From Novosphingobium sp. Gsoil 351 (GTDB lineage: Bacteria > Pseudomonadota > Alphaproteobacteria > Sphingomonadales > Sphingomonadaceae), in NCBI RefSeq assembly GCF_009707465.1, contig NZ_CP046120.1, positions 1,703,501-1,767,500 of the forward strand: DNA of 64,000 nt, written 5' to 3'. Numbering within the stretch: the first letter of the stretch is position 1; the number at the start of each line of letters is the position of its first letter. Below are positions 36,192 through 64,000 of the stretch, one piece after another. The notes below the pieces were generated by a model that worked only from the letters and a program-made list of their open reading frames with translations, made no database searches and was not told the origin of the DNA. A program made the position numbers and the translations under genes.

Positions 36192-37100
36192 TCACCCCGG
36201 CAGGAAATTCCGCCCGCGCCGCGCCACGAACTCCCTGAACGCGGCCAGCGTGGGCGAGGAGGGCCGATCCGCCAGGCTGACCACGAACCACTGGCGCATC
36301 AACGGCGTGCCGACCACGTCGAGCACCGCCAGCCGCCCGACCTCCAGCTCGAGCGCGATGGTGTGGGCGGACAGCATCGCGACGCCCATCCGCGCCATCA
36401 CCGCCTGCTTGATCGTCTCGTTGGAGTTGAATTCGGGGCCGGGGCGATCCAGCCCGCCCGGAATTTCCCCGAGGAACAGTTCGAGCGAGGTGCGGGTGCC
36501 CGAGCCGGCTTCGCGCATCAGGATCGTCTCCTGGGCGATGCGCCGTTTGGGGATGGCGCGCTGGCCCGCCAGCGGATGGTCGGGCGCGGCGATGATCACC
36601 AGCGGGTGGTCGCCGATCAGCGCGGTGGCGACGTCGGCGGCGCGCGGCGGGCGCCCCATCAGCGCGACGTCGATCTCGCGCGCATCGAGCGCGGCGATGA
36701 TCCCGGCGCGGTTGGCCACGGTGAGCTGGAGTTCGATGCCCGGATGCTCGGCGGCGAACCCGGCGATCAGGCCCGGCACGAAATACTTGGCGGTCGAGAC
36801 CGCGCCAAGCCGCAGCAGGCCCTGCTCGGCTCCGCCGATCGCCGCGATCTCCTCGCCAAGCAGGAGCAGGCGCTGCGCAATGTCCCGCGCCGCGGCGATC
36901 GTCGCCCGGCCCGCGTCGGTGGCGCGAAAGCCGTCGCTGGCGCGTTCGAACAGCGGGGTTCCGGCGGCGGCCTCGGCCTGCTGGATCTGCAGCGTGACCG
37001 CAGGGGCGGTGAGGCCGAGGTCGCGCGCGGCGGCGCTGACTTTGCCCAGCCGGGAGATCGCGAGCACCGCCCGAAGCTGACGAAGGGTAAGACCGCGCAT
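36192..37100 (-). CDS. cbbR: LysR-type regulator CbbR
   Basis: A 302-residue LysR protein divergent from cbbF. The N-terminal winged helix (TLRQLRAVLAISRLGKVSAAARDLGLTAPAVTLQIQQAEAAAGTPLFER) and the effector domain (LLRLGAVSTAKYFVPGLIAGFAAEHPGIEL) match CbbR, the activator of Calvin-cycle operons that senses metabolites such as RuBP. Position, orientation and sequence agree. The 114-bp spacer to cbbF contains candidate binding sites. Confidence 0.92.
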   Translation of the reverse strand: MRGLTLRQLRAVLAISRLGKVSAAARDLGLTAPAVTLQIQQAEAAAGTPLFERASDGFRATDAGRATIAAARDIAQRLLLLGEEIAAIGGAEQGLLRLGAVSTAKYFVPGLIAGFAAEHPGIELQLTVANRAGIIAALDAREIDVALMGRPPRAADVATALIGDHPLVIIAAPDHPLAGQRAIPKRRIAQETILMREAGSGTRTSLELFLGEIPGGLDRPGPEFNSNETIKQAVMARMGVAMLSAHTIALELEVGRLAVLDVVGTPLMRQWFVVSLADRPSSPTLAAFREFVARRGRNFLPG

Positions 37101-37214
37101 GGACTATGCTAAGATTTTCTCACTACATATGTAAAGAGATTAAACTTTACTGAAATCGGACTAGCGTCTCACCTGTCGCTCAAGGCGCCACCAAGGCGCC
37201 ACGGAGCGGACGCG
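37101..37214 (+). promoter_or_regulatory. cbbR-cbbF divergent control region with candidate CbbR boxes
   Basis: The first 60 bp are notably AT-rich. Two matches to the CbbR consensus TNA-N7/8-TNA are visible: TAA-N7-TCA at 37110-37122 and TTA-N8-TGA at 37140-37153. A small palindrome ACATATGT lies between them. Nearer the gene, CAAGGCGCCAC occurs twice in perfect tandem (37181-37191 and 37192-37202), each copy containing the palindrome GGCGCC. A promoter for the cbb operon is expected here; exact -35/-10 boxes were not assigned. Confidence 0.6.
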
Positions 37215-38255
37215 GTGATCGGAACCACCCTCGACGACTGGCTCGATCGCCACCGCGCCACGGACGCGGCACAGGGCGCGGCCGTCGCCGACACGATTGC
37301 GATCCTCGCGCGCACCGGGGCCGGGCTTGCGGCGACGATCGCCGCCGGACCGCTGGGCGGCACCGTCGCCGATCCTGGCGCAGTCAACGCCGGGGGCGAC
37401 GCCCAGCGCGGACTCGACTTGCTCGCCGACGACCGCTTCCTGACCGCGCTCAGCCGCTCGCCCGTCGGGCTCTATGCTTCAGAGGAACTGGCCCAGCCGG
37501 TGGTTATCGATGCCGCGCGGCCGCTGGCGCTGGCGATCGATCCGCTCGACGGCTCGTCGAACATCGATACCAACGTCTCGATCGGCACGATCTTTTCCGT
37601 CCGCGCCAACGACGCCGGGGCCGATCCGCTCGCGCCGTTCCTGCGTTCGGGGCGCGAGCAGTTGGCCGCCGGCTTCCTGATCTATGGTCCGCAACTCGCG
37701 CTGGTCCTGTCGCTGGGCGAAGGCACCCAGATTTTCATCCACGACCCCGCCGAGGGAGCCTTCCGCCTGATCAACGAGCGCAGCGCGATCCCGCCCAAGA
37801 CCCGCGAATTCGCGATCAACGCCTCCAACTACCGCCACTGGCACGAGGCGGTGCGGCTCTATTTCGACGATTGCCTGAAGGGCGGCCACGGCCCGCGCGA
37901 GGACGAGTTCAACATGCGCTGGGTCGCCTCGCTGGTCGCCGAGACTTATCGCATCCTCGCCCGTGGCGGGACCTTCCTGTACCCCGGCGACCGCCGCCGC
38001 GGCTATGCCAAGGGCCGTTTGCGGCTGGTCTACGAGGCGCAGCCGATCGCGATGCTGATCGAGCAGGCCGGCGGGCTGGCGACCGATACGATCGAGCCGA
38101 TCCTCGATCTGTGCGCGACCGAACTCCACCAGCGCGTTCCGCTGGTGTTCGGCTCGGCCAACGAAGTGCGCCGGATCGGCCGCTACCACACCCGCCCCAG
38201 CGACATGAGCGACCGCGCCCCGCTGTTCGCCAAGCGCACGCTGTTCCAGGCCTGA
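37215..38255 (+). CDS. cbbF: Class I fructose-1,6-bisphosphatase, Calvin cycle
   Basis: Dephosphorylates fructose-1,6-bisphosphate, and in such operons often sedoheptulose-1,7-bisphosphate, for RuBP regeneration. The 346-residue protein has the metal-binding motif LAIDPLDGSSNIDTNVSIGT and the substrate-binding ARGGTFLYPGD, both class I. The start is GTG 37215. It is the first gene of the cbb operon, five bases before cbbP. Confidence 0.94.
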   Translation: MIGTTLDDWLDRHRATDAAQGAAVADTIAILARTGAGLAATIAAGPLGGTVADPGAVNAGGDAQRGLDLLADDRFLTALSRSPVGLYASEELAQPVVIDAARPLALAIDPLDGSSNIDTNVSIGTIFSVRANDAGADPLAPFLRSGREQLAAGFLIYGPQLALVLSLGEGTQIFIHDPAEGAFRLINERSAIPPKTREFAINASNYRHWHEAVRLYFDDCLKGGHGPREDEFNMRWVASLVAETYRILARGGTFLYPGDRRRGYAKGRLRLVYEAQPIAMLIEQAGGLATDTIEPILDLCATELHQRVPLVFGSANEVRRIGRYHTRPSDMSDRAPLFAKRTLFQA

Positions 38256-38260
38256 CGGAC

Positions 38261-39136
38261 ATGAGCGCGCGTCACCCCATCATCTCGGTCACCGGCTCGT
38301 CGGGCGCGGGCACGACCACGGTCAAGCACACCTTCGAGCAGATCTTTCGCCGCGAGGGCATCGCCGCCGCGACGATCGAGGGCGACGCGTTCCACCGCTA
38401 TGACCGGGCGACGATGCGCGAGAAGCTCGCGACCGCGGAAGCCGCGGGCAATCGGCACCTCAGCCACTTCGGCCCCGGCGAGAACCTGTTCGAGGAGCTG
38501 GAGCAGACCTTTCGCCAGTACGGCGCGACCGGCACGGGCAAATCGCGCCACTACATCCACGACGATGCCGAGGCCGAGCTTCACGGCGCGCCTCCCGGCA
38601 CGTTCACCGAATGGGCGGACCTGCCCTCGCCCACCGACGTGTTGTTCTACGAAGGGCTGCACGGCGCGGTCGTTACCGACACCGTCGACATCGCCCAGCA
38701 TGCCGATCTGCGGATCGGCGTGGTTCCGGTGATCAACCTCGAATGGATCCAGAAGCTCCACCGCGACAAGGCGGCACGCGGCCATTCGGCCGAGGCGATT
38801 ACCGACACGATCCTGCGGCGGATGCCCGATTACATTCACTACATCTGTCCGCAGTTCGTCGAGACCGACATCAATTTTCAGCGGGTGCCGGTGGTCGATA
38901 CCTCGAACCCGTTCATCGCCCGCTCGATCCCTACCCCCGACGAATCGATGGTGGTGATCCGCTTCAAGAACCCGCGCGGGATCGATTTTCCCTACCTCAC
39001 CACGATGATCCAGAACGCGTTCATGAGCCGGGCCAACTCGATCGTGATTCCCGGCGGCAAGCTCGACCTGGCGATGCAGTTGATCCTGACCCCCCTGATC
39101 CTGCGCCTGGTCGAGCGCAAACGGAGGATGGACTGA
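38261..39136 (+). CDS. cbbP: Phosphoribulokinase
   Basis: Makes ribulose-1,5-bisphosphate from ribulose-5-phosphate and ATP, a reaction essentially diagnostic of the Calvin cycle. The 291-residue length fits the octameric bacterial class I form. The P-loop is VTGSSGAGTTTVKHTF, and EGDAFHRYDR and FYEGLHGAVVTD carry the conserved active-site residues. A family B repeat of about 85 bp separates it from cbbA. Confidence 0.96.
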   Translation: MSARHPIISVTGSSGAGTTTVKHTFEQIFRREGIAAATIEGDAFHRYDRATMREKLATAEAAGNRHLSHFGPGENLFEELEQTFRQYGATGTGKSRHYIHDDAEAELHGAPPGTFTEWADLPSPTDVLFYEGLHGAVVTDTVDIAQHADLRIGVVPVINLEWIQKLHRDKAARGHSAEAITDTILRRMPDYIHYICPQFVETDINFQRVPVVDTSNPFIARSIPTPDESMVVIRFKNPRGIDFPYLTTMIQNAFMSRANSIVIPGGKLDLAMQLILTPLILRLVERKRRMD

Positions 39137-39164: not shown

Positions 39165-39250
39165 CCCGCTCATCCCGAGCCAAGTCGAGGAATCCCGCGC
39201 AAGGGTGCGACCTCACGAGAGATGTCTCGACTTCGCTCGACATGAGCGGG
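39165..39250. repeat. Inverted intergenic repeat, family B, inside the cbb operon
   Basis: The left arm (39165-39192) has CCCGCTCATCCCGAGCCAAGTCGAGG and the right arm (39224-39250) TCTCGACTTCGCTCGACATGAG with GCGGG, able to pair over about 25 bp. The same arms form the element at 24203-24276. Lying between cbbP and cbbA, it could create a processing or partial termination point within the operon. Confidence 0.7.
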
Positions 39251-39265
39251 TTTCTGGAGGGCAAC

Positions 39266-41817
<2,552 letters not shown>

Positions 41818-41828: not shown

Positions 41829-42251
41829 ATGCGCGTCACCCAGGGAACCTTCAGCTTCCTTCCCGACTTCACCGACGAGCAGATCACCGCCCAGGTGCAG
41901 TACTGCCTCGACCACGGCTGGGCGATCAATCTGGAGTTCACCGACGACCCTCACCCCCGCAACACCTATTGGGAGATGTGGGGCATCCCGATGTTCGACA
42001 TCGCCGATGCCAAGGGGGTGATGATGGAGCTGGCCGAATGCCGCAAGGTCCACGCCGGTGCGAACTATATCCGCCTGACCGCATTCGACAATTCGCACGG
42101 CTGGGAGTCGATCAGGCTGTCGTTCATCACCGACCGCCCGGCCGACGAGCCAGGCTTCCGGCTCGAACGCAAGGAAATCGGCGGTCGGCAGATCCAGTAC
42201 ACCACGCGCCCCTATTCGTCGGCCAAGCCCGTGGGGCAGAGGTACGCGTGA
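41829..42251 (+). CDS. cbbS: RuBisCO small subunit, red type
   Basis: A 140-residue small subunit starting [19 protein letters not shown], the standard red-type start. It contains [24 protein letters not shown] and a C-terminal extension ([19 protein letters not shown]) that forms the beta-hairpins lining the central pore in form IC/ID enzymes. It lies 11 bp downstream of cbbL and overlaps cbbX by four bases. Confidence 0.96.
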
Positions 42252-43138
42252 GTGGCGACCCGATCGACCTCAAGCGCGAATTCGCCGAGGCCGGGCTCGG
42301 CGACGAACTGGCGGTACTCGATGCCGAGCTGATCGGGCTCGCTCCGGTCAAGCAGCGCATCCGCGAGATCGCCGCGCTGCTCCTGGTCGACCGGGTGCGC
42401 GAGCGGCTGGGGCTGACCAGCGAGCCGCCAACGCTGCACATGAGCTTCACCGGCAATCCCGGCACCGGCAAGACCACCGTGGCGCAACGGATGGCGGGGA
42501 TCCTCCACAAGCTAGGCTACGTGCGCAAGGGTCACCTCGTCTCGGTTACCCGCGACGATCTGGTCGGCCAGTACATCGGCCACACCGCACCCAAGACCAA
42601 GGAAGTGCTCAAACGCGCGATGGGTGGCGTGCTGTTCATCGACGAGGCCTATTACCTCTATCGCCCCGAGAACGAGCGCGACTACGGCCAGGAAGCGATC
42701 GAGATCCTGCTCCAGGTGATGGAAAACCAGCGCGAGGACCTGGTGGTGATCCTGGCCGGCTATGCCGACCGGATGGACACCTTCTTCGGCAGCAACCCCG
42801 GCTTTCGCAGCCGCATCGCCCATCACATCGATTTCCCCGACTATGCCGACGCCGAGCTGGTCGAGATCGCCGCGCTGATGCTGGCACGCCAGGGCTACAA
42901 CCTGTCGGACGAAGCGCAAACGGCGCTGGGCGAGTACATCGCGCTGCGCCGCGGCCAGCCACATTTCGCCAACGCCCGCTCGATCCGCAACGCGCTCGAC
43001 CGCGCCCGTCTGCGCCAGGCGGTGCGCCTGGTCGAGGGCGGCGGGGCGGTTGCGGCGGAGCGGCTTTCGACGATCGAAGCCGAGGACATCCGGGGCAGCC
43101 GCGTCTTCGCAACGGCCAGTGACGGCCCCGCGCCATGA
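42248..43138 (+). CDS. cbbX: Red-type RuBisCO activase CbbX
   Basis: A hexameric AAA+ remodeller that removes inhibitory sugar phosphates from red-type RuBisCO by pulling the large-subunit C-terminus. The 296-residue protein has Walker [15 protein letters not shown], pore loop [16 protein letters not shown], Walker [15 protein letters not shown] and the arginine-containing [17 protein letters not shown] region. The start is GTG 42248, overlapping the cbbS stop. Its presence agrees with the red-type cbbLS. Confidence 0.96.
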
Positions 43139-43857
43139 CGCTGAAGGCGCTGATCTTCGATGTCGACGGAACTCTCGCCGAGACCGAGGAAGCGCATCGT
43201 AGCGCGTTCAACCGGACTTTCGCCGAGGCCGGGCATGACTGGGAGTGGTCGCCCGAGCACTACCGCCGCCTGCTCGAGACGACCGGCGGAAAAGAGCGGA
43301 TCGCCGCGTTTCTGGACGAGATCGGCGAGTCGCTTGCGGCAGAAACGATCGCCCGGCTCCACGCCCGCAAGAACGCGATCTACGCGCAACTTGTGGCCGG
43401 CGGCGAAGTGGCTTTACGCCCCGGCGTCGTCCGCCTGATCGACGAAGCGCGCGCGGCCGGGGTGGGGCTCGCCATCGCGACCACAACCAGCCGTGCCAAT
43501 CTGGCCGCGCTGCTCGGCCGCCTCTTCGGCCTGTCCGCGCTCGGCATCTTCGCCGCTGTTGTTGCGGGAGAGGACGTGTCCGCCAAAAAGCCCGATCCGG
43601 AAGTCTACGCACGCACGCTCGCCCTGCTCGGCCTCGCCCCCGGCGAATGCCTGGCGATCGAGGATTCACGCAACGGGATGCTGGCCGCGCGGGCCGCGGG
43701 GCTGCCGGTGCTCGTCACCCCGTCGCGCTACACCGACCACGAGGTGTTCGACGGCGCGGCACTGCTCCGCCCCGATCTCGACTCCGCGCCCGCGATCACA
43801 CTCGCCGATTGCGAACGGCTGGTGTCCGAGTCGCCGGCCACGGCCAACGCCGCATGA
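43135..43857 (+). CDS. cbbY: CbbY HAD phosphatase (xylulose-1,5-bisphosphate phosphatase type)
   Basis: A 240-residue haloacid dehalogenase-like phosphatase. Motif I is [17 protein letters not shown], motif [11 protein letters not shown], motif [11 protein letters not shown] and motif [14 protein letters not shown]. CbbY proteins next to cbbX remove the RuBisCO inhibitor xylulose-1,5-bisphosphate, a repair role that fits here. ATGA overlap with cbbX upstream and with the next gene downstream. Confidence 0.92.
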
Positions 43858-44279
43858 CCGCGTCCGATCCGCTTCCGAACCTCGACGAAGCGCCGCTGGC
43901 CGGGCACGGCGGGCGGACCGAGACGATGGTGCTGGCGGGGTTCAGCTCCGTCGAGCACGCGCTACTGATCGTCATCGCGCTGCTGACGATCGGCGCGGCA
44001 AGCCTCGAACTCTACGGCGTGTTCGTCGCGCGGACAGTCGCGCTCGCCGACATCCTGCTGATGTTCCTCTACACCGAAGTCATCGGGATGATCGCGGTGT
44101 TCTACACCGGGCGCGGATCGCCGTTCGTCTATCCGATCTTCATCGCGATGACCGCGCTGGCGCGGCTGATCGTGCTCCAGGGCAAGGACATGGCCCCGGA
44201 GAACATTCTGTTCGAGGCGGGGGCGATCCTGCTGCTGTCGTTCGCCGCGGTGATCATCGCGCGCGCCGGGCGGCACTGA
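43854..44279 (+). CDS. PsiE-like small membrane protein in the cbb operon
   Basis: A 141-residue protein with about four hydrophobic helices (ALLIVIALLTIGAASLELYGVF, ILLMFLYTEVIGMIAVFY, PIFIAMTALARLIVLQ, FEAGAILLLSFAAVIIARAG). The arrangement and the MFLYTEVI region resemble the PsiE (phosphate-starvation-inducible) superfamily, which has no known biochemical role. Overlaps on both sides (ATGA with cbbY; 2 bp to the next gene) put it firmly within the operon. A link to phosphate use in the Calvin cycle is possible but unproven. Confidence 0.75.
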   Translation: MTASDPLPNLDEAPLAGHGGRTETMVLAGFSSVEHALLIVIALLTIGAASLELYGVFVARTVALADILLMFLYTEVIGMIAVFYTGRGSPFVYPIFIAMTALARLIVLQGKDMAPENILFEAGAILLLSFAAVIIARAGRH

Positions 44280-44281: not shown

Positions 44282-44956
44282 TTGGCGGCCTCTCGCTTCG
44301 ATGTAGTCGCGTTCGATCTCGACGGGACATTGGCGGACACCGCAGACGACCTTGCCGCCGCGCTCAACTATGCGCTGGTCCTGGCAGATCGGGCCCCTCT
44401 TGGCCTCGAAACGGTTCGCGCGATGGTTGGCCACGGGACCCGCGCGCTGATGCGCAAGGGGCTGGCGGCTACCGGTGATGTCACCGAAGCGCTGGTCGAC
44501 GCCAGCCTGCCCGATCTGACCAATTTCTACGCGGCCAACATCTGCACCGCGACGACCGGCTACCCCGGGGTCGAACAGGCGCTCGATATGCTCGCAGAGC
44601 AAGGGTCACGCCTCGCGGTGTGCACTAACAAGCCCGAGCGGCTCGCGACGATGCTTGTCGAAGCGCTCGGCTGGACAGACCGATTCGCGGCCGTCATCGG
44701 CGGCGATACGCTGGCCTTCACCAAGCCGGACCCCGCGATGCTCCACGCCGCGATCTCCCGCGCCGGCGGGGGCCGCGCCGCCTATGTCGGCGATTCGATC
44801 ACCGATGCCGACACCGCCCGCGCCGCCGCGATACCGTTCGTCGCGGTTTCGTTCGGGTTTCTCGACCGGCCGGTGGGGGAGCTGGGTGCGGCGGCGGTGA
44901 TCGACCACTACGACGAACTGCCGGCGGCGCTTGCCAGTCTCGTCCGAGTGACATAG
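44282..44956 (+). CDS. gph: Phosphoglycolate phosphatase
   Basis: A 224-residue HAD phosphatase (also called cbbZ) that removes 2-phosphoglycolate formed by RuBisCO oxygenation. Motif I is VVAFDLDGTLADTADDLAAALN, and GHGTRALMRKG, VCTNKP, TKPDPAMLHAAI and YVGDSITDADTARAA follow the Gph pattern. The start is a TTG at 44282 with no strong ribosome site, suggesting coupling to the gene two bases upstream. It is the last gene of the cbb operon. Confidence 0.9.
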   Translation: MAASRFDVVAFDLDGTLADTADDLAAALNYALVLADRAPLGLETVRAMVGHGTRALMRKGLAATGDVTEALVDASLPDLTNFYAANICTATTGYPGVEQALDMLAEQGSRLAVCTNKPERLATMLVEALGWTDRFAAVIGGDTLAFTKPDPAMLHAAISRAGGGRAAYVGDSITDADTARAAAIPFVAVSFGFLDRPVGELGAAAVIDHYDELPAALASLVRVT

Positions 44957-44979
44957 CACTATGACAAACGACCCTGACA
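44949..44979 (+). promoter_or_regulatory. Three TGACA repeats phased at 13 bp upstream of idi
   Basis: TGACA occurs at 44949-44953, 44962-44966 and 44975-44979, each start exactly 13 bp from the last, over the end of gph and the 29-bp spacer before idi. TGACA is half of the PpsR/CrtJ palindrome (TGTCA...TGACA), but here all three point the same way. It may be a control element at the border of the cbb and photosynthesis operons, or coincidence. Confidence 0.4.
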
Positions 44980-44985
44980 CTCGGG

Positions 44986-45543
44986 ATGAGTACCCTGTTC
45001 GGCCAGACGCCTACGTCCGCATCGCCACGCGCAGCGCCAGCCGAGGCGCTGCTGATCCTCGTCGATGAGACCGACGCCGAGGTCGGGCATGCCGAAAAGC
45101 TCGAGGCGCACCGGCTTGGCGCGCTCCACCGCGCGGTCTCGGTGAGCATCGCCGACAGCAAGGGCAACATCCTGATCCAGCGCCGGGCGAGCGGCAAATA
45201 TCATTCCGCCGGGCTGTGGTCGAACGCCTGCTGCTCGCACCCCCTGCCGGGCGAGGAAGCGCTGGCGGCGGCGCAACGCCGGTTGGGCGAGGAGATGGGG
45301 TTCGTCTGTGATCTCGGGTTCCGGCAGAAGCTGCGCTATTCGAGCGAGGTCGGTGCGGGACTGATCGAGAACGAACTGGTCCATTTCTTCGCGGGAACCT
45401 ACGACGGCGAAGTGATCCCCGAGCCGAGCGAAGTCGGCGAGATCGCCTGGGTGCCGCATGCCGAACTCTACGCCCGGGTGCGCGCCAATCCCGTCGACTT
45501 TTCGGCGTGGTTCCGGATCTATGTCGAAGCCGGGGTCATCTAG
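44986..45543 (+). CDS. idi: Isopentenyl-diphosphate delta-isomerase type I
   Basis: Interconverts IPP and DMAPP, feeding carotenoid and phytol/geranylgeranyl synthesis. The 185-residue Nudix-fold protein has GLWSNACCSHPLPGE (active-site Cys), RRLGEEMGF (Nudix-like metal site) and ENELVHFFAG. Position just ahead of bchI ties it to pigment production. ATG 44986 follows GGGATGAG-type purines. Confidence 0.93.
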   Translation: MSTLFGQTPTSASPRAAPAEALLILVDETDAEVGHAEKLEAHRLGALHRAVSVSIADSKGNILIQRRASGKYHSAGLWSNACCSHPLPGEEALAAAQRRLGEEMGFVCDLGFRQKLRYSSEVGAGLIENELVHFFAGTYDGEVIPEPSEVGEIAWVPHAELYARVRANPVDFSAWFRIYVEAGVI

Positions 45544-45594
45544 CATCCGCGACGCTTGCCGCCCCGCCGACGCTTCTCCAGAGTAACCCCGCGC

Positions 45595-52916: not shown

Positions 52917-53003
52917 CCCGTTTCCGTTTGGTTACGTTGCCAACTGGGCGAGCATCCCGCCGATGCCGTCCGGGGTTCTTCGCCCGGAAAGGAAGCGAAG
53001 CCG

Positions 53004-53938
53004 ATGGAGGGAGTCGCAGTCATCCTCGAAGCGCCGCGGCAGCTTGCGCTCCGCTCGCTCGAGCTGACTCCCCCGCTGCCGGCGACGTGGTTGTCGAAAC
53101 GCGCTGGAGCGCGATCAGCAGCGGCACCGAAAAGCTCCTGTGGACCGGCGAGATGCCGTCCTTCCCCGGCATGGGTTATCCGCTGGTTCCCGGCTACGAA
53201 TCGGTTGGCCGGGTGGTCGATGCCGGCACCGAGGCCGAGGCGCGGATCGGCGACTGGGTCTTCGTTCCCGGCGCGGCCTGTTATCGCGATGCGCGTGGGT
53301 TGTTCGGCGGCACCGCCGCGCGCCTGGTGGTGCCATCCGCGCGCGCCTTGCCGGTCGCTGAATCGCTCGGCCGGGACGGCACCTTGTTCGCGCTCGCCGC
53401 GACCGCGCTCCACGCGCTCGAAGGCGGTGAGGCGCCGGACCTGATCGTCGGCCACGGCGTGCTCGGCCGCCTGCTCGCGCGCCTCGCCATCGCCTCGGGT
53501 GCGCCGGCCCCGGTGGTGTGGGACACCAACCCGCTGCGCCGCGGTGGCGCGGCCAGCTATGATGTGATCGATCCCGCCGACGACGACCGCCGCGACTATC
53601 GCGCGATCTACGACGTCAGCGGCGACGCCACGCTGCTCGACGTGTTGATCGGACGCGTCGCCAAGCGCGGCGAGATCGTCCTCGCCGGGTTCTATCGCGA
53701 CCGCCTCAGCTTCGGCTTCGCCCCGGCGTTCCGCGCCGAGGCGCGGCTGCGCGTCGCCGCGGAATGGGGGCCGGACGACCTGTTCTCGACCCGCGCGCTG
53801 ATCGAATCGGGCGCGCTCGACCTCTCGGGCCTGATCACCGACGTTCGCCCCGCCGGGCAGGCCGCCAGCGCCTATCCGATGGCGTTCGACGATCCCGACT
53901 GCCTCAAGATGGTTCTCGACTGGAGCGGCACCGCATGA
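53004..53938 (+). CDS. bchC: Bacteriochlorophyllide 3-hydroxyethyl dehydrogenase BchC, frameshifted
   Basis: Oxidises the 3-hydroxyethyl group to acetyl in bacteriochlorophyll a synthesis. The N-terminus [21 protein letters not shown] reads from ATG 53004. The rest ([40 protein letters not shown] ... [17 protein letters not shown]) reads in another frame to 53938. The frames meet at a run of five C (53070-53074); six C would give [12 protein letters not shown] with no gap. As the enzyme is needed for pigment and the cluster is otherwise intact, an assembly error is the likely cause. It overlaps bchX by four bases. Confidence 0.88.
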
Positions 53939-54921
53939 CCATGCTCGATCTCCATTCCGGCCTGCGCGACGAAGCGGGAATCGAACCCGACCCGGTACCG
54001 ACCGGCGAGGTCAAGAGCGCCACGCAGATCATCGCGATCTACGGCAAGGGCGGCAGCGGCAAATCGTTCGCGCTCGCCAACCTCAGCTACATGATGGCCC
54101 AGCAGGGCAAGCGCGTGCTGCTGATCGGCTGCGATCCGAAGTCCGACACCACCAGCCTGCTGTTCGGCGGCAAATCGACCCCGACGATCATCGAGACCTC
54201 GAGCGCCAAGAAACTGGCGGGCGAGGAGATCGGGATCGAGGACGTCTGCTTCCAGCGCGACGGGGTGTTCGCGATGGAGCTGGGCGGGCCCGAGGTCGGG
54301 CGCGGCTGCGGCGGGCGCGGGATCATCCACGGGTTCGAGACGCTCGAGAAGCTTGGCTTCCACGAATGGGGCTTCGACTACGTCCTGCTCGATTTCCTCG
54401 GCGACGTGGTCTGCGGCGGGTTCGGTCTGCCGATCGCGCGCGACATGTGCCAGAAGGTGATCGTCGTCGCCTCTAACGACCTGCAATCGCTCTACGTCGC
54501 CAACAACGTCTGCAAGGCGGTCGAATACTTCCGCAAGATGGGCGGCAACGTCGGCGTCGCGGGCATGATCCTGAACAAGGACGACGGCACCGGCGAGGCC
54601 AATGCCTTCGCCGAGGCGGTCGGCATCCCGGTGCTGTGCGCGATCCCCGCCAACGAGGACATCCGCAAGAAGTCGGCCAACTACCAGATCATCGGCAAGC
54701 CCGGCGGGCAGTGGGCCGGCCTGTTCGAGGAGCTGGCGATCAACGTCGCCGAGGCCCCGCCGCTGCGCCCCAACCCGCTCGACCAGGACGGTCTGCTGAA
54801 CCTGTTCAGCGCCGACATCACCGGCGCGGACTTCACGCTCAAGCCCGCGACCCAGGCCGACATGCGCGGGGTCGAATTCGTCACCAAGCCGAGCCTCGAG
54901 GTCATTTATGACGAGGCCTGA
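53935..54921 (+). CDS. bchX: Chlorophyllide reductase iron protein BchX
   Basis: The ATP-dependent electron donor of chlorophyllide a reductase (COR), which reduces ring B to the bacteriochlorin. The 328-residue, NifH-like protein has the P-loop [20 protein letters not shown] and the two Cys that bridge the 4Fe-4S cluster between subunits (GRGCGGRG and [10 protein letters not shown]). ATG 53935 overlaps the bchC stop. It works with BchY and BchZ encoded next. Confidence 0.97.
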
Positions 54922-54924: not shown

Positions 54925-56460
54925 ATGACCGACCTCGCCCTTCCCGTGGCGACGCGCGAACGCGACCGGATCGATCTCGATCCCGTCGCCGAAGCCGGCG
55001 GCTGCCACGGCGGGGCGGAGACGATGCGCGAAGCCGCTAAGGCAGCGGGCAAGAGCGAGATCCTCGATCGTTACGCACAGGATTACCCACAGGGACCGCA
55101 CGACCAGCCGCAATCGATGTGCCCGGCGTTTGGGTCGCTTCGGGTAGGCCTCAGGATGCGGCGCACCGCGACCGTGCTCTCGGGCTCGGCCTGCTGCGTC
55201 TATGGCCTGACCTTCACCTCGCACTTCTACGGCGCGCGGCGCAGCGTCGGCTACGTTCCGTTCAGCTCGGAGACGCTGGTCACCGGCAAGCTGTTCGAGG
55301 ACATCAAGGAAGCGGTCGAGGGCCTCGCCGATCCGGCCAACTACGACGCGATCGTCGTCACCAACTTGTGCGTGCCGACCGCCAGCGGAGTACCGCTGCG
55401 GCTGCTCGGCAAATCGATCAACGGCGTGCGGATCATCGGCATCGACGTGCCGGGCTTCGGCATCCCGACCCACGCCGAGGCCAAGGACGTGCTGGCGGGC
55501 GCGATGCTGAACTATGCGCGCGGCGAGGTCGAGGAAGGCCCAGTCGCCGCGCCGAAGACCCGTTCGGACAAGCCGACTATCACCCTGCTGGGCGAGATGT
55601 TCCCCGCCGATCCGGTCGGGGTGGGGATGATGCTCGAACCGCTCGGCCTCGCCGCCGGGCCGGTGGTGCCGACACGCGAATGGCGCGAGCTCTATGCCGC
55701 GCTCGATTGCGCCGCGGTCGCCGCGATCCATCCGTTTTACACCGCCAGCGTCCGCGAATTCGAGGCCGCGGGGCGAGGCATCGTGGGATCGGCGCCGGTC
55801 GGCGCGGACGGAACGGCGGCGTGGCTCGACGCGATCGGCTCGGCGTGCGGTATCGCTCAGGAAAAAGTCGATGTGGCCAAGAACCGCTTCGTCCCCGCGA
55901 TCCGCGGCGCGCTCGCCGCCAATCCGATCAAGGGGCGGATCACGGTTTCGGGCTATGAAGGGTCCGAGCTGCTCGTCGCCCGGCTGCTGATCGAGAGCGG
56001 CGCGGATGTGCCCTACGTCGGCAGCGCCTGTCCCCGAACCCGCTGGTCCGATCCCGACCGCGAATGGCTCGAAGCCAAGGGCGTGCGCGTCCAATACCGC
56101 GCCAGCCTCGAACAGGATCTCGCCGCGGTCGACGAGTTCGGGCCCGACCTGGCGATCGGCACCACCCCGGTGGTCCAGCACGCCAAATCGCGGGCGATCC
56201 CCGCGCTCTATTTCACCAACCTGATCTCCGCGCGCCCGCTGATGGGCGTCGCCGGGGCGGGAAGCCTCGCCGCGGTGATCAACGCCGCGATGGGCAACAA
56301 GGCGCGCTTCGACAAGATGCGCGAATTCTTCGAAGGCGTCGGCGAGGGCCACGCCGCGGGGATCTGGGACGAGACCCCGCAGGATCGCCCGCAGTTCAAG
56401 AAGAAGTACGCCGCCTTGAACGAAGCCGCGCGCAAGGCCGCCGAGGCGGTGGGATCATGA
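54925..56460 (+). CDS. bchY: Chlorophyllide reductase subunit Y
   Basis: A NifD-like half of the COR catalytic component. The 511-residue protein keeps cluster-ligand cysteines in [22 protein letters not shown] and [11 protein letters not shown], followed by [18 protein letters not shown] and later [12 protein letters not shown]. It starts 3 bp after bchX and overlaps bchZ (ATGA). Confidence 0.97.
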
Positions 56461-57899
56461 CCCTGGTCCTCGATCACGATCGCGCGGGCGGATACTGGGG
56501 CGCGGTCTACGTGTTCACCGCGATCAAGGGTCTGCAGGTGATCATCGACGGCCCCGTGGGGTGCGAGAACCTGCCGGTGACGTCGGTGCTCCACTACACC
56601 GACGGGCTTCCCCCGCACGAGCTGCCGATCGTGGTTACCGGGCTGGGTGAAGAAGAACTCGGCAAGACCGGCACCGAAGGCGCGATGAAGCGGGCGTGGA
56701 AGACGCTCGATCCCGATCTGCCCGCAGTGGTCGTGACCGGATCGATCGCCGAGATGATCGGCGGCGGGGTGACCCCCGAAGGCACCAACATCAAGCGCTT
56801 CCTGCCGCGCACGATCGACGAGGACCAGTGGCAGTGCGCCGACCGCGCGCTGTCGTGGCTGTGGAAGGAATTCGGCCCCAAGGCGGTGCCGGCGCTCAAG
56901 GAGCGCAAGGAGGGCGAGAAGCCCCGGGTCAACATCATCGGCCCGGCTTACGGCATGTTCAACATGGCCTCGGACGTCGCGGAAATCCGCCGCCTCGTCG
57001 AAGGCATCGGGGCCCAGGTCAACATGGCCTTTCCGCTCGGCAGCCACCTTGCCGACGTTCGCCGCCTGGCCGATGCCGAGGCCAACGTCTGCCTCTACCG
57101 CGAATACGGGCGCAATTTGTGCGAGGTGCTCGAGCGGCCATATTTCCAGGCCCCGGTCGGGCTCAGCTCGACCACCGCCTTCCTGCGCGCGCTGGGCGCC
57201 GAACTGGGCCTCGATCCCGAACCGTTCATCGCGCAGGAAAAGCACACCACGATCAAGCCGCTGTGGGACCTGTGGCGATCGGTCACCCAGGACTTCTTCG
57301 CCACCGCCAATTTCGGGATCGTCGCCAACGAGACCTATGCGCGCGGCATCCGTCACTTCCTCGAAGACGACATGGGGCTGCCCTGTGCATTCGCGTTCAG
57401 CCGCAGCGCCGGGATCAAGCCGAAGAACGAAGAAGTCCGCGCCGCGATCCACGCCGCGCCGCCGCTGGTGGTGTTCGGCAGCTACAACGAGCGGATGTAT
57501 CTCGCCGAGTGCAACGCGCGCAGCATCTACATTCCGGCGAGCTTCCCAGGCGCGGCGATCCGCCGCCACACCGGCACGCCGTTCATGGGCTATTCGGGCG
57601 CGACCTACCTCGTCCAGGAAGTGTGCAACGCGCTGTTCGACGCGTTGTTCAACATCATCCCGCTCTCGACCCAGCTCGACGCAGTCGAAGCGACCCCGGC
57701 GCGGCCGCACCGCGAACTGGCGTGGGACGCCGACGCCAAGGCCAAGCTCGACGCCCTGGTCGAGGCGCAGCCGGTGCTGGTTCGGATATCCGCCGCCAAG
57801 CGCCTGCGCGATGCCGCCGAACGCGCCGCGCGCCGCGCCGGCGACGACCGCGTCACCGCCGATCGGCTGGCCGACGCCCTTTTGGAGGGAGCCGGCTGA
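56457..57899 (+). CDS. bchZ: Chlorophyllide reductase subunit Z
   Basis: A NifK-like partner of BchY. The 480-residue protein starts [25 protein letters not shown] and has the conserved [20 protein letters not shown] (cluster Cys), [13 protein letters not shown] and [30 protein letters not shown]. The C-terminal DUF3498-like helical tail ([18 protein letters not shown]) is normal for BchZ. pufB follows after 138 bp with no pufQ between. Confidence 0.97.
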
Positions 57900-58037: not shown

Positions 58038-58202
58038 ATGAATGATCCGACACCACGCGACGATCGCTTCGGGCTGAGGACCTACCTCACCCCCGAGGAG
58101 GCCAAGGAATTCCACAAGCTGTTCATGAGCAGCTTCCTCGGCTTCACCGCGGTCGCCATCGTCGCCCATATCCTCGTGTGGATGTGGAGGCCGTGGCTCT
58201 GA
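58038..58202 (+). CDS. pufB: Light-harvesting complex 1 beta subunit
   Basis: A 54-residue LH1 beta polypeptide. A charged cytosolic start with the conserved [16 protein letters not shown] is followed by one helix whose AxxxH pattern ([15 protein letters not shown]) supplies the bacteriochlorophyll-binding His. GGAG lies upstream of ATG 58038. First puf gene; pufA follows after 73 bp. Confidence 0.96.
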
Positions 58203-58275: not shown

Positions 58276-58464
58276 ATGTGGAGAATCTGGCTCATTTTCG
58301 ACCCGCGCAGGGCCCTCGTGGCACTGTTCATTTTCCTGTTCGTGCTGGCTCTGGTGATTCACTTCATCCTGCTCAGCACCAATAAGTACAACTGGCTCGA
58401 TGGCCCGCACGATGCGGCGGCGCCGATGGCGGCACCCGCGGCAGCGGCTCCGCCGGCGACCTGA
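58276..58464 (+). CDS. pufA: Light-harvesting complex 1 alpha subunit
   Basis: A 62-residue LH1 alpha polypeptide. It has the standard start [18 protein letters not shown], one membrane helix with the ligand His in [12 protein letters not shown] and the NKYNWLDG segment that tunes the antenna. The Ala/Pro tail ([14 protein letters not shown]) is typical. A hairpin follows before pufL. Confidence 0.96.
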
Positions 58465-58581: not shown

Positions 58582-59421
58582 ATGGCGCTGCTCAGCTTCG
58601 AGCGGAAATACCGCGTGCGCGGAGGCACCCTGATCGGCGGAGACCTGTTCGACTTCTGGGTCGGCCCGTTTTACGTCGGCTTCTTCGGCGTGGTCACCGC
58701 GATATTCGCCTCGCTCGGCACCGCGCTGATCTTCTACGCCGCGTCGCAGGGACCGACCTGGAACCCGTGGCTGATCTCGATCGCGCCGCCGGACTTGTCC
58801 TACGGCCTCGGCCTGGCCCCGCTCAACCAGGGCGGTTTCTGGCAGATCATCACGGTCTGCGCGCTGATCTCGTTCACCTCGTGGGCGGCGCGCGAGGTCG
58901 AAATCTGCCGCAAGCTGGGCATGGGCTATCACGTGCCCGTCGCCTTCGGCTTCGCGATCTTCGCCTACTTCTCGCTGGTGGTGATCCGCCCGGTGCTGCT
59001 GGGCGCGTGGCACTTCGGCTTTCCCTATGGCATCTTCAGCCACTTGGATTGGGTCTCGAACACCGGCTACCAGTACCTCCATTTCCATTACAACCCGGCG
59101 CACATGCTGGCGGTGAGCTTCTTCTTCACCACCGCGCTGGCGCTGGCGCTGCACGGCAGCCTGGTGCTTTCGGCGGTCAATCCGCCCAACAACCCCGACG
59201 GCACCCCCGGCGAGGTCAAGACCCCGGAATACGAGGACACCTTCTTCCGCGATCTGATCGGCTATTCGATCGGAACGCTGGGCATCCACCGCCTCGGCCT
59301 CCTACTCGCGCTCAACGCGGCGTTCTGGAGCGCGGTGTGCATCATCATCAGCGGACCGCTGTGGACCAAGGGCTGGCCCGAGTGGTGGACCTGGTGGCTC
59401 AACCTGCCGATCTGGTCGTGA
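58582..59421 (+). CDS. pufL: Photosynthetic reaction centre L subunit
   Basis: A 279-residue type II reaction-centre core protein with five membrane helices. Recognisable are [27 protein letters not shown] at the start, [36 protein letters not shown] (special-pair and iron ligand histidines) and the quinone-side [23 protein letters not shown] 58582. pufM follows after 13 bp. Confidence 0.98.
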
Positions 59422-59434: not shown

Positions 59435-60403
59435 ATGGCTCGTTATCAGAACATCTTCACCCAGGTTCAGCTCCGCGCGCCCGAATACGGCATCCCGCTG
59501 CCGCCCGGCGAAGAGCGCAGCGGCGGGATCGGCTTCAGCGACCTGTTCGGCCGGATCGGCGGGGCGCAAGTCGGCCCGATCTATCTCGGCTGGCTGGGCA
59601 CCGCATCGCTGATGTTCGGCTTCCTGGCGATCGAGATTATCGGGCTCAACATGCTCGCCTCGGTCAACTGGAACTTCATCCAGTTCATCCGCCTGCTGCC
59701 CTGGCTGGCGCTCGAGCCGCCGGGGCCCGAGTGGGGCTTCACCTTCTTCGTGCCGCTGGCCCAAGGCGGGTGGTGGCAGCTCGCCGGCTTCTCGCTCACC
59801 GCCTCGGTGCTGCTGTGGTGGCTTCGCACCTACCGCCGCGCCCGCGCGCTGGGGATGGGCACGCACGTCGCCTGGGCGTTCCTTTCGGCGATCTGGCTGA
59901 TGCTCGTGCTCGGGTTCATCCGGCCGATGCTGATGGGCAGCTGGGCTGAGAGCGTGCCGTTCGGGATCTTCCCGCACCTCGATTGGACCGCGGCGTTCTC
60001 GATCCGGTACGGCAACCTGTTCTACAACCCGTTCCACGCGCTTTCGATCGCGTTCCTCTATGGTTCGACGCTGCTCTTCGCGATGCACGGCGCGACGATC
60101 CTGGCGGTGGGCCGCTATGGCGGCGAGCGCGAGATCGAGCAGATCACCGATCGCGGCACCGCCTCGGAACGCGCCGCGCTGTTCTGGCGCTGGACGATGG
60201 GCTTCAACGCGACGATGGAATCGATCCACCGCTGGGCCTGGTGGTTCGCGGTGCTGACCACGCTGACCGGCGGGATCGGCATCCTGCTGACCGGGACGGT
60301 GGTCGACAACTGGTATCTATGGGCGCAGCAGCATCACTACGCGCCGTCCTATCCTGTAGCCGGGGTCCCCGACCCCGCCGGTCTGGGGAGCGTCGGACAA
60401 TGA
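59435..60403 (+). CDS. pufM: Photosynthetic reaction centre M subunit
   Basis: A 322-residue partner of PufL. Present are [70 protein letters not shown] (special-pair ligand and accessory pigments) and [23 protein letters not shown] (iron and QA site). It overlaps pufC by four bases. Confidence 0.98.
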
Positions 60404-61485
60404 GGAGACCTATTCTCGTCGCCGCGGCGGCAACGTTGCCGCTGGTTCTGGGCGCCTGCGAGCTGGCGCCCAAGACCACCCACCAGAACGGCTTTCGCGG
60501 CACCGGCATGGATACCATCAAGGTCTCCGCTGCCGCCGCGGCGAGCGCCGTGCCCGCGCCTCCGTACGATCCACCCGCCGCGACCGGCGGCACGCCCGCC
60601 GGCAACGTCTACAAGAACGTCCAGGTGCTGGGCGACATTTCAGACGAGCAGTTCAACTACACGATGGCCGCGATCACCCAGTGGGTCGCGCCGGCCGAGG
60701 GTTGCAACTATTGCCACAACCCGGCGAACATGGCGTCGGACGAACTCTACACCAAGGTCGTCGCGCGGCGGATGCTGCAGATGACGCGCGGGATCAACCA
60801 GGGCTGGACCAGCCACGTCGGCAAGACCGGGGTGACCTGCTACACCTGCCACCGCGGCCAGGCGGTGCCGAGCGAGCACTGGACGCTGCCCGCCGCCGAT
60901 CCGACCAGCATCGTCGGCAACCGTCACGGCCAGAACGATCCGGTCTCCAACTCGGCGTATTCCTCGCTGCCCAACGCGGCGGTGGCCAAGTACCTGCTTG
61001 GCGGGACGACGCCCGAGGACGTCCGAGTAGTGGCCAAGACCTCGCATCCTTCGCCCGCGGACAGGATCTCGATCAAGCAGACCGAGGCCAGCTATGCGAT
61101 GATGATGCACATCACCCAGGCGCTGGGGGTGAACTGCACCTATTGCCACAACGCGCAGTCGTTCCAGACCTGGGCGACCAGCAACCCGCCGCGCGCCACC
61201 GCCTGGTACGGCCTGCGGATGGTCCGCGACATCAACGGGAAGTACATCGGGCCGCTGAGCGCCGTCTTCCCCGCCAACCGCAAGGGCGAGGGCGGCGATC
61301 CGTTCAAGGTCAACTGCACCACCTGCCACCGCGGCCAGAACAAGCCGCTGGGCGGAGTCGCGATGAGCAAGGACTATCCGGCCCTGTTGCACGGGGGGTA
61401 CACCCAGACGGCGGCGCCGATGATGCCCGCGCCCGCCCCGGCGGCAGCGCCTGCTGCGGGGGCTGGGACGACGGCGACGCGGTAG
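60400..61485 (+). CDS. pufC: Reaction-centre tetraheme cytochrome c subunit
   Basis: A periplasmic electron donor to the special pair. The 361-residue protein has a lipoprotein signal (LPLVLGAC) and four heme-binding sites CNYCH, CYTCH, CTYCH and CTTCH, with Met-rich helices preceding each pair ([18 protein letters not shown]). The Ala/Pro tail ([13 protein letters not shown]) is low complexity. Some aerobic phototrophs lack pufC; it is present and intact here. A family A repeat starts two bases after the stop. Confidence 0.97.
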
Positions 61486-61861: not shown

Positions 61862-61869
61862 CGCGTCGC

Positions 61870-62364
61870 TCAGCGGAACGGGCCGTTGAGCGCGACGATC
61901 TGCCAGTTGAGCGCGCCCGCGATCGTGACCCACACCAGATAGGGCGCCAGCAGCAGCCCGGCGGTGCGCGACAGGCGCCCGCACACCAGGATCAGCGCGG
62001 CGATCGAGCACCACAGCGCGATCAGCTCGCCGAACGCCCAGTCAGGCCGTTGGAGGCGGAAAAAGATCAGGCTCCACAGCAGGTTAAGGAAGCCGTTCAG
62101 CGCGAACATCCAGACCAGCGTGTCGGCCTCGCGGCTGCTCGCGGTCTGCCGCCAGGCGGTCACCGCGGCGCTCGCGGTCAGGGTGAAGACCACCGTCCAG
62201 ATGATTCCGAAGGCCGGGCCGGGCGGGTTCCAGTCGGGCTTGCGCAACGCCTGATACCACGGCCCCAGATCGGTGATGGTGCCCCCGACCACGCCGACCA
62301 GGATCGCCGCGAAAGCCGCGATCGTTACCGGGGCGATCCAGCTGCGGCTTACCTGCACGCTCAC
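61870..62364 (-). CDS. tspO: TspO/MBR family protein
   Basis: A five-helix outer-membrane/mitochondrial-benzodiazepine-receptor-like protein that binds porphyrins. In Rhodobacter it modulates photosynthesis gene expression in response to oxygen. The 164-residue protein contains WYQALRKPDWNPPGPAFGIIWTVVF and NGFLNLLWSLIFFRLQRPDWAF, the family signatures rich in Trp. GTG 62364 overlaps the bchP stop. Its place in the photosynthesis cluster supports a tetrapyrrole-linked role. Confidence 0.92.
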   Translation of the reverse strand: MSVQVSRSWIAPVTIAAFAAILVGVVGGTITDLGPWYQALRKPDWNPPGPAFGIIWTVVFTLTASAAVTAWRQTASSREADTLVWMFALNGFLNLLWSLIFFRLQRPDWAFGELIALWCSIAALILVCGRLSRTAGLLLAPYLVWVTIAGALNWQIVALNGPFR

Positions 62365-63554
62365 TGCGGCAGCGGCCTCAACCGCAGCAGATGCCCCATG
62401 TCCTTGAAAAATATCCGCAAATGGGCAAGCGGCTTGGCCCGCACCAGGCGCTTGTTCATATAGGCCTGCCAGGTCAGCTCCTGCACGTCGGCATCGGCGC
62501 ACATCGCCACGAACCGCTCGCGCCGCTCGTCGCTCGAGTACCAGAACCGCTGCATTATCCCCAGCACCCAGAACACCCGCCCGTGCTCGCGCATGAACGC
62601 CTTGCGCGCGGACTTGAGCGCGCGCGGGTTGCCGGTGGCGAGAAACGCCTCGCCCGCATCGGCCGCGGCGCGGCCGCCGGTCATCGCGTAGTAGATCCCC
62701 TCTCCCGAAGCCGGGGCAACCACCCCGGCGGCGTCGCCGGCGAGCAGCACATCGCGGCCGTTGTCCCAGCGTTTGAGCGGCTTGAGCGGGATCGGCGCGC
62801 CTTCGCTGCGGATGGTGGCGCAGTCGGTCAGACCCAGATCGCCGCGCATTTCCTTCACCGCGCCACGCAGCGAAAAGCCCTTGTTGGCGCTGCCGACCCC
62901 GATGCTCGCGGTCTCGCCATGCGGAAACACCCAGGCGTAGAAATCGGGCGAAAGCTTGCCCTGGTAATAGACGTCGCAGCGCCCACCGTCGAAGCCTTCG
63001 GGGGTCGACGGGGGCGAGGCGACGATCTCGTGATAGGCGAACACGCAAGGGATCCGCTCGGCCCCGGGCAGATTCTGCCGGGCCACCGCCGAACGCGCGC
63101 CGTCAGCGCCGATCACCAGCCGGGTGCGAACCTCGCGCAATTCCTCGCCGCGCGCGTCGCGATACCACACCGCAGTGCCGTCCTCGTCGCGCTCGATCCG
63201 TTCGAACACCCCGGTGCGGCGCTCGGCCCCGGCGGCGGCAGCGCGCGCGCGCAGCCATTCGTCGAACACGTCGCGGTCGACCATCCCGACGAAACCGATC
63301 TCGCCCACCGGCATGTCGACCCGGCGATTGGCGGGCGAGACCATCCGCGCCGAGCGCGCGCGCGCGACCAGCAGGCTGTCGGGGATCGCGAAGTCCTTGA
63401 GGAGGCGTGGCGGTACTGCGCCGCCACACGGCTTGATCCGCCCGGCACGGTCGAGCAACAGCACCTTGCGGCCCTTGCCTGCAAGATCGGCGGCCGCGGT
63501 CGCCCCCGCGGGGCCACCGCCGATCACCACCGCGTCATAGATCGCCTCTTTCAT
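62361..63554 (-). CDS. bchP: Geranylgeranyl diphosphate / geranylgeranyl-bacteriochlorophyll reductase BchP
   Basis: Reduces the geranylgeranyl chain to phytyl in bacteriochlorophyll. The 397-residue flavoprotein has an N-terminal dinucleotide fold ([22 protein letters not shown]), KPCGGAVPPRLL, and the FAD-binding VLLAGDAAGVVAPASGEGIYYAM near the middle-to-C-terminal region, all characteristic of BchP/ChlP. ATG 63554 overlaps the pucC-like stop, and its own stop overlaps tspO. Confidence 0.96.
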   Translation of the reverse strand: MKEAIYDAVVIGGGPAGATAAADLAGKGRKVLLLDRAGRIKPCGGAVPPRLLKDFAIPDSLLVARARSARMVSPANRRVDMPVGEIGFVGMVDRDVFDEWLRARAAAAGAERRTGVFERIERDEDGTAVWYRDARGEELREVRTRLVIGADGARSAVARQNLPGAERIPCVFAYHEIVASPPSTPEGFDGGRCDVYYQGKLSPDFYAWVFPHGETASIGVGSANKGFSLRGAVKEMRGDLGLTDCATIRSEGAPIPLKPLKRWDNGRDVLLAGDAAGVVAPASGEGIYYAMTGGRAAADAGEAFLATGNPRALKSARKAFMREHGRVFWVLGIMQRFWYSSDERRERFVAMCADADVQELTWQAYMNKRLVRAKPLAHLRIFFKDMGHLLRLRPLPQ

Positions 63555-64000
63555 GTCGAACGCACCGTCTGGGTACTCCTTCGCGCGGCGCTGACCGCGA
63601 GCAGTGCGGCGAGCGCGAACAGCCCCGCCTCGCAGGCGAAAATCAGGCGGAAAGCGGCGGCGGTGCCCATCCCGTCGGCACGCGCGAAATCGACGCCGAG
63701 CGCGCCGGTCAGCCCGCCCAATCCGAAGGCGATCGCCTGGGCCGCGCCCCACACGCCCATCCGCACGCCCTCGCGGGTCCGCGCCCCCGCGCCCGCCAGC
63801 CCCATCATCGCGCCGATCGCCGAGACCGCGAACACGCCGTTGGCGAAGCCCAGCGCGAAGACGTTGGCGGCGAGCGGCCAGCCGGCACCGAAGCTCGCCG
63901 CGACGGCCAGCCCACTTAGCGCCAGCGCCGAACCGAGGCAGCCGCCGACGATCCAGATGCGCAAGTCGGAAGGCAGTCTCCCCGCGAACGCGCTGCCGCC
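63551..64000 (-). CDS. PucC-family (BCD) transporter, C-terminal part, cut by window end
   Basis: The last about 149 residues of a major-facilitator protein. The reading frame is open to the window edge (GGSAFAGRLPSDLRIWIVGG). Helices such as NVFALGFANGVFAVSAIGAMMGLAG and the block AGARTREGVRMGVWGAAQAIAFGLGGLTGALGVDF match the PucC/LhaA/Bch2 family, which helps to assemble LH1 or LH2 antennae. The neighbour bchP fits the common bch2-bchP order. The exact member cannot be named from this fragment. Confidence 0.9.
   Translation of the reverse strand, partial: GGSAFAGRLPSDLRIWIVGGCLGSALALSGLAVAASFGAGWPLAANVFALGFANGVFAVSAIGAMMGLAGAGARTREGVRMGVWGAAQAIAFGLGGLTGALGVDFARADGMGTAAAFRLIFACEAGLFALAALLAVSAARRSTQTVRST

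Follow-up and report, generated by a model that had tools for sequence, protein, structure and literature searches.

A form I Calvin operon adjoining the bchIDO end of a photosynthesis gene cluster in Novosphingobium sp. Gsoil 351

In Novosphingobium sp. Gsoil 351 (hereafter G000) a Calvin-cycle (cbb) operon runs in the same direction into a photosynthesis gene cluster (PGC). Both were studied from a 64,000-nucleotide stretch of the genome (assembly GCF_009707465.1, contig NZ_CP046120.1, positions 1,703,501 to 1,767,500 of the forward strand; hereafter the window, whose numbering is used throughout). The reading we favour, with a probability of roughly 0.6, is that a complete, probably functional form I Calvin operon immediately precedes the bchIDO end of a PGC that is otherwise ordinary and typical of the genus, that the two were joined in this lineage, that bchIDO is transcribed mainly from the cbbF promoter and that the cell is most likely an aerobic photoheterotroph or mixotroph. 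The 29-bp junction between gph and idi lies in a co-oriented run of 13 genes, from cbbF to bchO, in which idi and bchI are 12 bp apart and both bchI/bchD and bchD/bchO overlap by 4 bp.

The block bears on how photoheterotrophs acquire or retain carbon fixation. A single genus here holds phototrophs free of RuBisCO, others whose Calvin operon is on a separate contig, and blocks joined in two different ways, so that the steps can be ordered. The definition of aerobic anoxygenic phototrophs given in PMC12654162 includes the absence of RuBisCO; G000, with its cbbL, falls outside that definition.

Methods

Genomes and loci are referred to by G and L numbers, G000 being the genome that carries the cbb-PGC block. 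Gene names were assigned by family models and gaps were computed from coordinates. The samples comprised 397 genomes of the family, 195 genomes of the genus and 396 genomes of the order; RuBisCO was assigned to form I by a match score above 440 bits, and the G636 fragment was excluded from the genus count.

PpsR-type sites (TGT-N12-ACA) were scored with a leave-one-out matrix from -100 to +30 nt around the matched bchI start, with 36 other sphingomonad PGCs for comparison. A site passed the 2% criterion when its score lay above at least 98% of background stretches from the same sequence. Rows dropped from this count were G357, G038, G317 and G407 (stretches without bchI), G101 (no stretch) and G665 (Burkholderiales); G766 was also outside it. 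The PGC tree was built from BchI, BchX, BchY, BchZ, PufL and PufM (24 rows) and the cbb tree from CbbL, S, X, P, A and F (20 rows; bootstrap not settled). The G733 row of the cbb tree mixes genes of contigs C6 and C106, which differ by 13% in their overlap, so that its exact place is unsure.

Results and discussion

Composition of the block

Divergent from cbbR lie, head to tail, cbbF, P, A, L, S, X, Y, a psiE-like gene and gph. Gaps of 5 bp (cbbF-cbbP), 105 bp (cbbP-cbbA), 14 bp (cbbA-cbbL) and 11 bp (cbbL-cbbS) are followed by overlaps of 4 bp each at cbbS/cbbX, cbbX/cbbY and cbbY/psiE and by 2 bp between psiE and gph. With cbbL, cbbS, cbbX, a phosphoribulokinase gene and a divergent cbbR all present, this is a red-type form I operon. 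The genes of the two Calvin-specific enzymes, RuBisCO and phosphoribulokinase, have open reading frames, and the operon as a whole is complete and probably functional.

Sphingomonad PGCs have the gene order bchIDO-crtCDF-bchCXYZ-pufBALM(C) together with bchFNBHLM-lhaA-puhABC-acsF-hemA, and this is what G000 holds within about 39 kb. Its cluster extends some 20 kb past the window, where bchG, ppsR and a B12-binding ppaA-like gene on the minus strand precede bchFNBHLM, lhaA, puhABC, acsF, puhE and hemA, and ends at 83733. From idi to hemA it spans 38.7 kb, close to the roughly 39 kb given for Sphingomonadales in PMC12654162. The order is identical in G710 as far as the stretch of that genome reaches, and in phylogeny the G000 cluster groups with sphingomonad PGCs; searches of the other PGC stretches gave no idi. 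Such a gene order is far beyond chance.

The preliminary description of this DNA, made from the letters alone, had listed cbbR/cbbFPALSXY-psiE-gph followed after 29 bp by idi-bchIDO-crtCDF-bchCXYZ-pufBALMC, and family models and coordinates bear out both the list and the spacing. It had continued the series with tspO-bchP-pucC; these genes are present, but on the minus strand, and pucC overruns the window end.

Regulation of bchIDO

In Rhodobacter sphaeroides, crtA-bchIDO is a PpsR target by chromatin immunoprecipitation sequencing, with a TGT-N12-ACA site and an about 20-fold expression change without PpsR (PMC4344238, Table 2). There, as in G000, bchIDO is operon-distal to another gene, but the R. 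sphaeroides operon stands under a PpsR site whereas bchIDO of G000 has no detected one.

At the bchI start of G000 the PpsR-type matrix gives -3.5 and no site was found, nor is there an exact PpsR-type site anywhere between 36192 and 51000. Within its own PGC clade nine of ten mates score 15.4-23.5 (8/10 by the 2% criterion) and the remaining one, G260, scores 3.8; across the 36 other sphingomonad PGCs an exact site lies in the bchI-start interval in 14, and 18 pass the 2% criterion. Exact sites are retained in G000 at crtD/crtF, before bchC and at four more places later in the PGC. Upstream of cbbF, a TGTAAA..AACTTTACT element is similar in six operons (G000, G559, G547, G140, G733 and G766) and absent from the seventh one aligned, G317.

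Since idi ends 12 bp before bchI and no PpsR-type site was found, the cbbF promoter is the nearest nameable candidate for bchIDO, which, judging from spacing and site scans, is probably transcribed as an extension of the Calvin operon. The two modules would have come together through a rearrangement or insertion in the G000 lineage (or in an unsampled close donor), with loss of the PpsR-controlled bchI promoter. The run from cbbF to bchO would then be transcribed mainly from a CbbR-controlled cbbF promoter, so that Mg-chelatase synthesis would follow a Calvin-cycle signal, while crtF and bchC-puf would keep their PpsR sites. From the missing PpsR site and the intact candidate cbbF operator follows the prediction that bchIDO obeys CbbR and bchC-puf obeys PpsR. 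A further-reaching proposal, to which we give somewhat less than even odds, is operon capture, in which CbbR would now switch the first committed step of bacteriochlorophyll synthesis and in which PGC-cbb joins would have arisen at least twice, at opposite PGC ends, within a single genus of sphingomonads, marking recurrent steps away from photoheterotrophy and towards coupled light-driven CO2 fixation.

Several points weigh against control of bchIDO from cbbF. Eighteen of the 36 other PGCs fail the 2% criterion, G140 and the own-clade members G260 and G762 (2.8%) among them, and as half of them do so the missing bchI site does not by itself establish capture. A promoter may also lie within gph or idi, or in the 105 bp between cbbP and cbbA; a sigma-70 scan gave no plus-strand site in gph or idi, which is weak evidence, the terminator and sigma-70 scans being uninformative. 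The best gph relatives include named Sphingosinicella and Allosphingosinicella proteins at 65-67% identity, so that psiE and gph could simply be ordinary neighbours on the chromosome, outside the Calvin operon. Finally, bchO and ppsR are frame-shifted, and the cluster may be partly decaying or misread. The bchO break lies near 48620-48650 beside a run of six C, and the proteins of N. capsulatum, G103 and G547 agree on it; ppsR (65834-67232, minus strand; L003:1828-3352) is split into two frames covering model positions 3-229 and 242-442, with the break between about 66470 and 66486 and no long run there. A broken ppsR, if real, would itself loosen PpsR control.

Mere neighbourhood without regulatory meaning, with bchIDO keeping its own promoter inside idi/gph and the adjacency incidental, would agree with the half of the other PGCs that have no strong PpsR-type site at bchI, and with linkage of the modules in only two of the four genus genomes carrying both (the other two being drafts). 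We consider it somewhat unlikely, given the co-orientation with gaps of 12 and 29 bp, the site that nine of ten clade mates have and G000 lacks, and the existence of two different joins in one genus. These two, together with others elsewhere, suggest that linkage is favoured.

Separate histories of the two modules

In a quick RpoB tree G000 groups with its genus mates G111, G361 and G559 (Shimodaira-Hasegawa-like approximate likelihood ratio test 99). Its PGC falls in an 11-row clade (100/100) with N. capsulatum, G103, G260, G710, G763, G678, G637, G677, G698 and G762, which besides N. capsulatum are genus mates and members of near genera; another clade (100/100) holds G559, G733, G766, G653, G547, G289 and G057. 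Close relatives of the PGC include the one on the N. capsulatum plasmid NZ_CP140001.1. On this 611-kb plasmid (L182) the bchIDO-to-pufC part of the cluster is followed by a ring-hydroxylating dioxygenase gene and other catabolic genes.

The cbb tree places G000 elsewhere, as sister (100/99) to G140, G559, G547, G733 and G766 with G317 outside, and this position stays at 100/98 when G733 and G766 are left out. Forcing the G000 PGC into a clade with those of G559, G547 and G140 was rejected (approximately unbiased test, p 1.2e-8); forcing the cbb operons of the genus (G000, G559, G733, G766) into a single clade was rejected more weakly (p 0.015; bootstrap not settled). The PGC thus fits the neighbourhood of its host, and the cbb operon is of a kind common across genera to RuBisCO-bearing phototrophic sphingomonads. 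The two modules do not share their closest relatives, and the block therefore seems to have been joined in the G000 lineage and not received whole, which is the simplest reading of the trees.

The preliminary description had seen in the block a unit capable of moving in a single event; the disagreement of the trees, with the rejected PGC clade, does not support this for G000. Joint inheritance seems to occur in the group of G559, G547, G733 and G766, whose PGC and cbb types are roughly concordant and where in G733 the modules are physically linked. The psiE, gph and idi genes have close relatives, at 79, 81 and 88% identity (nearest matches for psiE and idi, seventh for gph), each of which comes from an ENA record whose longest contig is exactly 3540 bp. 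Judging by this equal size, psiE-gph-idi may be contiguous in a separate assembly as well, and a relative would then share the join. Arrival of the fused block as one unit from another phototroph is nevertheless unlikely, as the G000 PGC sits among PGCs typical of the genus but the sisters of its cbb operon come from hosts with other PGC types, as the G+C content of the block (0.67-0.69) equals that of the left flank (0.68), and as the other two family-sample genomes with both modules, G140 and G317, hold them on one contig at distances of 0.46 and 1.5 Mb.

An assembly chimera, the risk to the junction that the preliminary description had raised, is highly improbable, for although the block has two frame breaks (bchO and ppsR; local sequence errors or decay) and contamination is estimated at 2.79%, the join lies inside a single 3,818,329-bp contig of a genome that is 99.46% complete, G+C is continuous with the left flank, and relatives of psiE, gph and idi recur on a contig of equal size (3540 bp) in an independent data set.

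Distribution and comparable joins

The preliminary description had supposed a sphingomonad host in which RuBisCO would be unusual, and both suppositions hold: G000 belongs to the same genus as an assembly titled Sphingomonadales, and form I RuBisCO occurs in 3 of 76 pufM-bearing genomes of the family sample and 4 of 35 of the genus. Form I CbbL was found in six genomes of the family sample (G000, G025, G065, G111, G140 and G317) and in six of the genus (G000, G111, G559, G730, G733 and G766). The order sample added G404, G407, G547 and G559, of which all except G404, a divergent form I at 56% identity, have pufM. Related genomes not being independent, the association of form I RuBisCO with pufM has p 0.010 in the genus (4/6 against 31/189) and p 0.087 in the family sample (3/6 against 73/391). 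In G559, G547, G407 and G766 the two modules lie on different contigs of draft assemblies, so that their distance is not proven.

RuBisCO together with a reaction centre is already in print for Sphingomonadales: PMC12999727 describes a strain (Polymorphobacter) of the JCM collection with form IC RuBisCO and pufLM, of the same order as G000 and of a different family. No report of a sphingomonad with linked cbb genes and PGC was found in the open-access literature searched. In Acaudatibacter (Caulobacterales), according to PMC12700997, Calvin-Benson-Bassham genes lie inside the PGC and photoautotrophy is deduced from genes. As in G000, where the Calvin operon stands directly next to the PGC, cbbLS, cbbX, cbbY and the Calvin cycle are there organised with the PGC in an alphaproteobacterium otherwise typical of photoheterotrophs; that cluster includes genes for light-harvesting complex 2 (LH2), whereas none were noticed in the G000 block, where no LH2 search was made.

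The gph-idi junction itself may recur on the 3540-bp contig that seems to hold psiE-gph-idi of a relative; the remaining joins are differently arranged. On contig C6 of the genus mate G733 a Calvin operon of the same sphingomonad type lies beside a PGC, but of another clade and at its opposite end: cbbL-A-P-F and cbbR are followed, after some 2.5 kb that contain a cytochrome c-like open reading frame (ORF) and a second ORF, by tspO-bchP and the rest of the cluster. Contig C6 ends inside cbbL, and the cbbL of C106 is only 87% identical over the shared 664 bp (L293, L295), so the assembly holds two operon copies or two strains. Between cbbR and tspO of G733 (L293:4671-6825) an ORF resembles by eye a BLUF plus B12-binding (AppA-like) regulator, with no NCBIfam match. 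In the alphaproteobacterial metagenome-assembled genome (MAG) ULC027bin2 (L008) PGC genes adjoin cbbR-cbbFPALSX, with no cbbY match in the locus; unlike in G000, and as in G733, the join is at the tspO/bchP end, and a cytochrome c-like ORF separates the two parts. A Burkholderiales MAG (G665/L014) also has operon and PGC in one block, but there the cbb operon separates bchO from the crt genes, and the cbb sequences cluster with those of Burkholderiales, Rudaea, Nevskia and Hydrocarboniphaga.

Physiology

The preliminary description had credited the genome with a potential for photoautotrophy. In a model search of G000, SoxB appeared only far below the cut-off (35 of 550 bits) and NiFe hydrogenase had no match, so that true photoautotrophy is unsupported. 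The oxygen-dependent cyclase gene acsF is present. In Rhodothalassium RuBisCO is present and no autotrophy was observed, CO2 refixation or an electron sink being discussed in PMC11762602. Most probably G000 lives as an aerobic photoheterotroph or mixotroph, which would combine light with a Calvin cycle for CO2 refixation or electron disposal, and not as a strict photoautotroph.

Features and surroundings

Table 1. Features of the block in window coordinates
Feature	Position	Strand	Basis or remark
Palindromic repeat, two 22-nt arms, 95% complementary, 71 nt apart	36075..36189		gap between biotin-carboxylase gene and cbbR; left boundary of block
cbbR, LysR-type regulator of Calvin operon	36192..37100	-	CbbR model best match, 322 bits, below 450 cut-off
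cbbR-cbbF intergenic region, presumed operon promoter	37101..37214	+	candidate CbbR operator inside
Candidate CbbR operator TGTAAA...AACTTTACT	around 37126-37152	+	alignment of operons
cbbF, class 1 fructose-bisphosphatase	37215..38255	+	family model
cbbP, phosphoribulokinase	38261..39136	+	NF011997, 507 bits
cbbA, class II fructose-bisphosphate aldolase	39242..40348	+	family model
cbbL, form I RuBisCO large subunit	40363..41817	+	family model; sole RuBisCO large-subunit match in genome
cbbS, RuBisCO small subunit	41829..42251	+	PF00101, 125.7 bits
cbbX, red-type RuBisCO activase	42248..43138	+	TIGR02880, 512 bits
cbbY-like HAD phosphatase	43135..43857	+	family-level match; position
psiE-like membrane protein	43854..44279	+	PF06146
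gph/cbbZ-like phosphoglycolate phosphatase, TTG start	44282..44956	+	TIGR01449, 174.6 bits, just under 180 cut-off
Junction Calvin operon/PGC, 29 bp	44957..44985	+	gap computation
idi, isopentenyl-diphosphate isomerase	44986..45543	+	family model
bchI, Mg-chelatase subunit I	45556..46596	+	family model; no PpsR-type site at start
bchD, Mg-chelatase subunit D	46593..48263	+	family model
bchO	48260..49106	+	family model; frame change near 48620-48650
crtC, carotenoid 1,2-hydratase	49303..50139	-	family model; start approximate
crtD, 1-hydroxycarotenoid 3,4-desaturase	50142..51704	-	family model; start approximate
PpsR-type site TGT-N12-ACA between crtD and crtF	51760..51777		site scan
crtF-like O-methyltransferase	51779..52888	+	PF00891; crtF name from position
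PpsR-type site upstream of bchC	52899..52916		site scan
bchC	52928..53938	+	family model
bchX	54025..54921	+	family model; start approximate
bchY	54925..56460	+	family model
bchZ	56457..57899	+	family model
pufB, light-harvesting complex 1 (LH1) beta	58038..58202	+	NF040862; PF00556
pufA, LH1 alpha	58276..58464	+	PF00556
pufL	58582..59421	+	family model
pufM	59435..60403	+	family model
pufC, reaction-centre cytochrome	60400..61485	+	family model; start approximate
tspO	61876..62346	-	PF03073, 143 bits; extent from alignment
bchP, geranylgeranyl reductase	62373..63539	-	TIGR02023, 499 bits; extent from alignment
pucC-like transporter	63629..64000, past window to about 64960	-	PF03209 on part beyond window

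To the left the block borders on genes for an acyl-CoA dehydrogenase, a carboxyltransferase and a biotin carboxylase, which we take to be liu genes. An empty-site comparison of the surroundings of the liuD-like gene in five of 58 matched genus mates (G507, G642, G628, G661 and G361) with 144 kb of G000 defined no insertion boundary. These stretches have the liu genes in common with G000. G661 alone also shares an aldehyde dehydrogenase gene (61%), found left of liuA there and, in G000, on the right side of the PGC near 90.7 kb. In G547, liuA/liuB-like genes (L168:9571-14573) lie some 16 kb from the cbb operon, and in G000 the liuD-like gene adjoins cbbR, which may be coincidence or residual synteny.

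The right flank has a G+C of 0.62-0.64. Among the ORFs scanned there, a Mutator-family (IS256-like) transposase gene lies about 5 kb beyond hemA (L004:4595-5854). The region right of hemA (84000-144000 in extended coordinates; L004, L203 and L204), where G+C falls from 0.69 and where a Rieske oxygenase gene accompanies the transposase, is a possible island.

No tRNA gene was found within 40 kb right of the window. The sole tRNA call inside it, an ARAGORN tRNA-Ser at 46549-46646 within bchI/bchD, is probably spurious, and the nearest others lie some 38 kb left of cbbR. A terC RNA (RF03067) at 12173-12246 scores above its gathering score.

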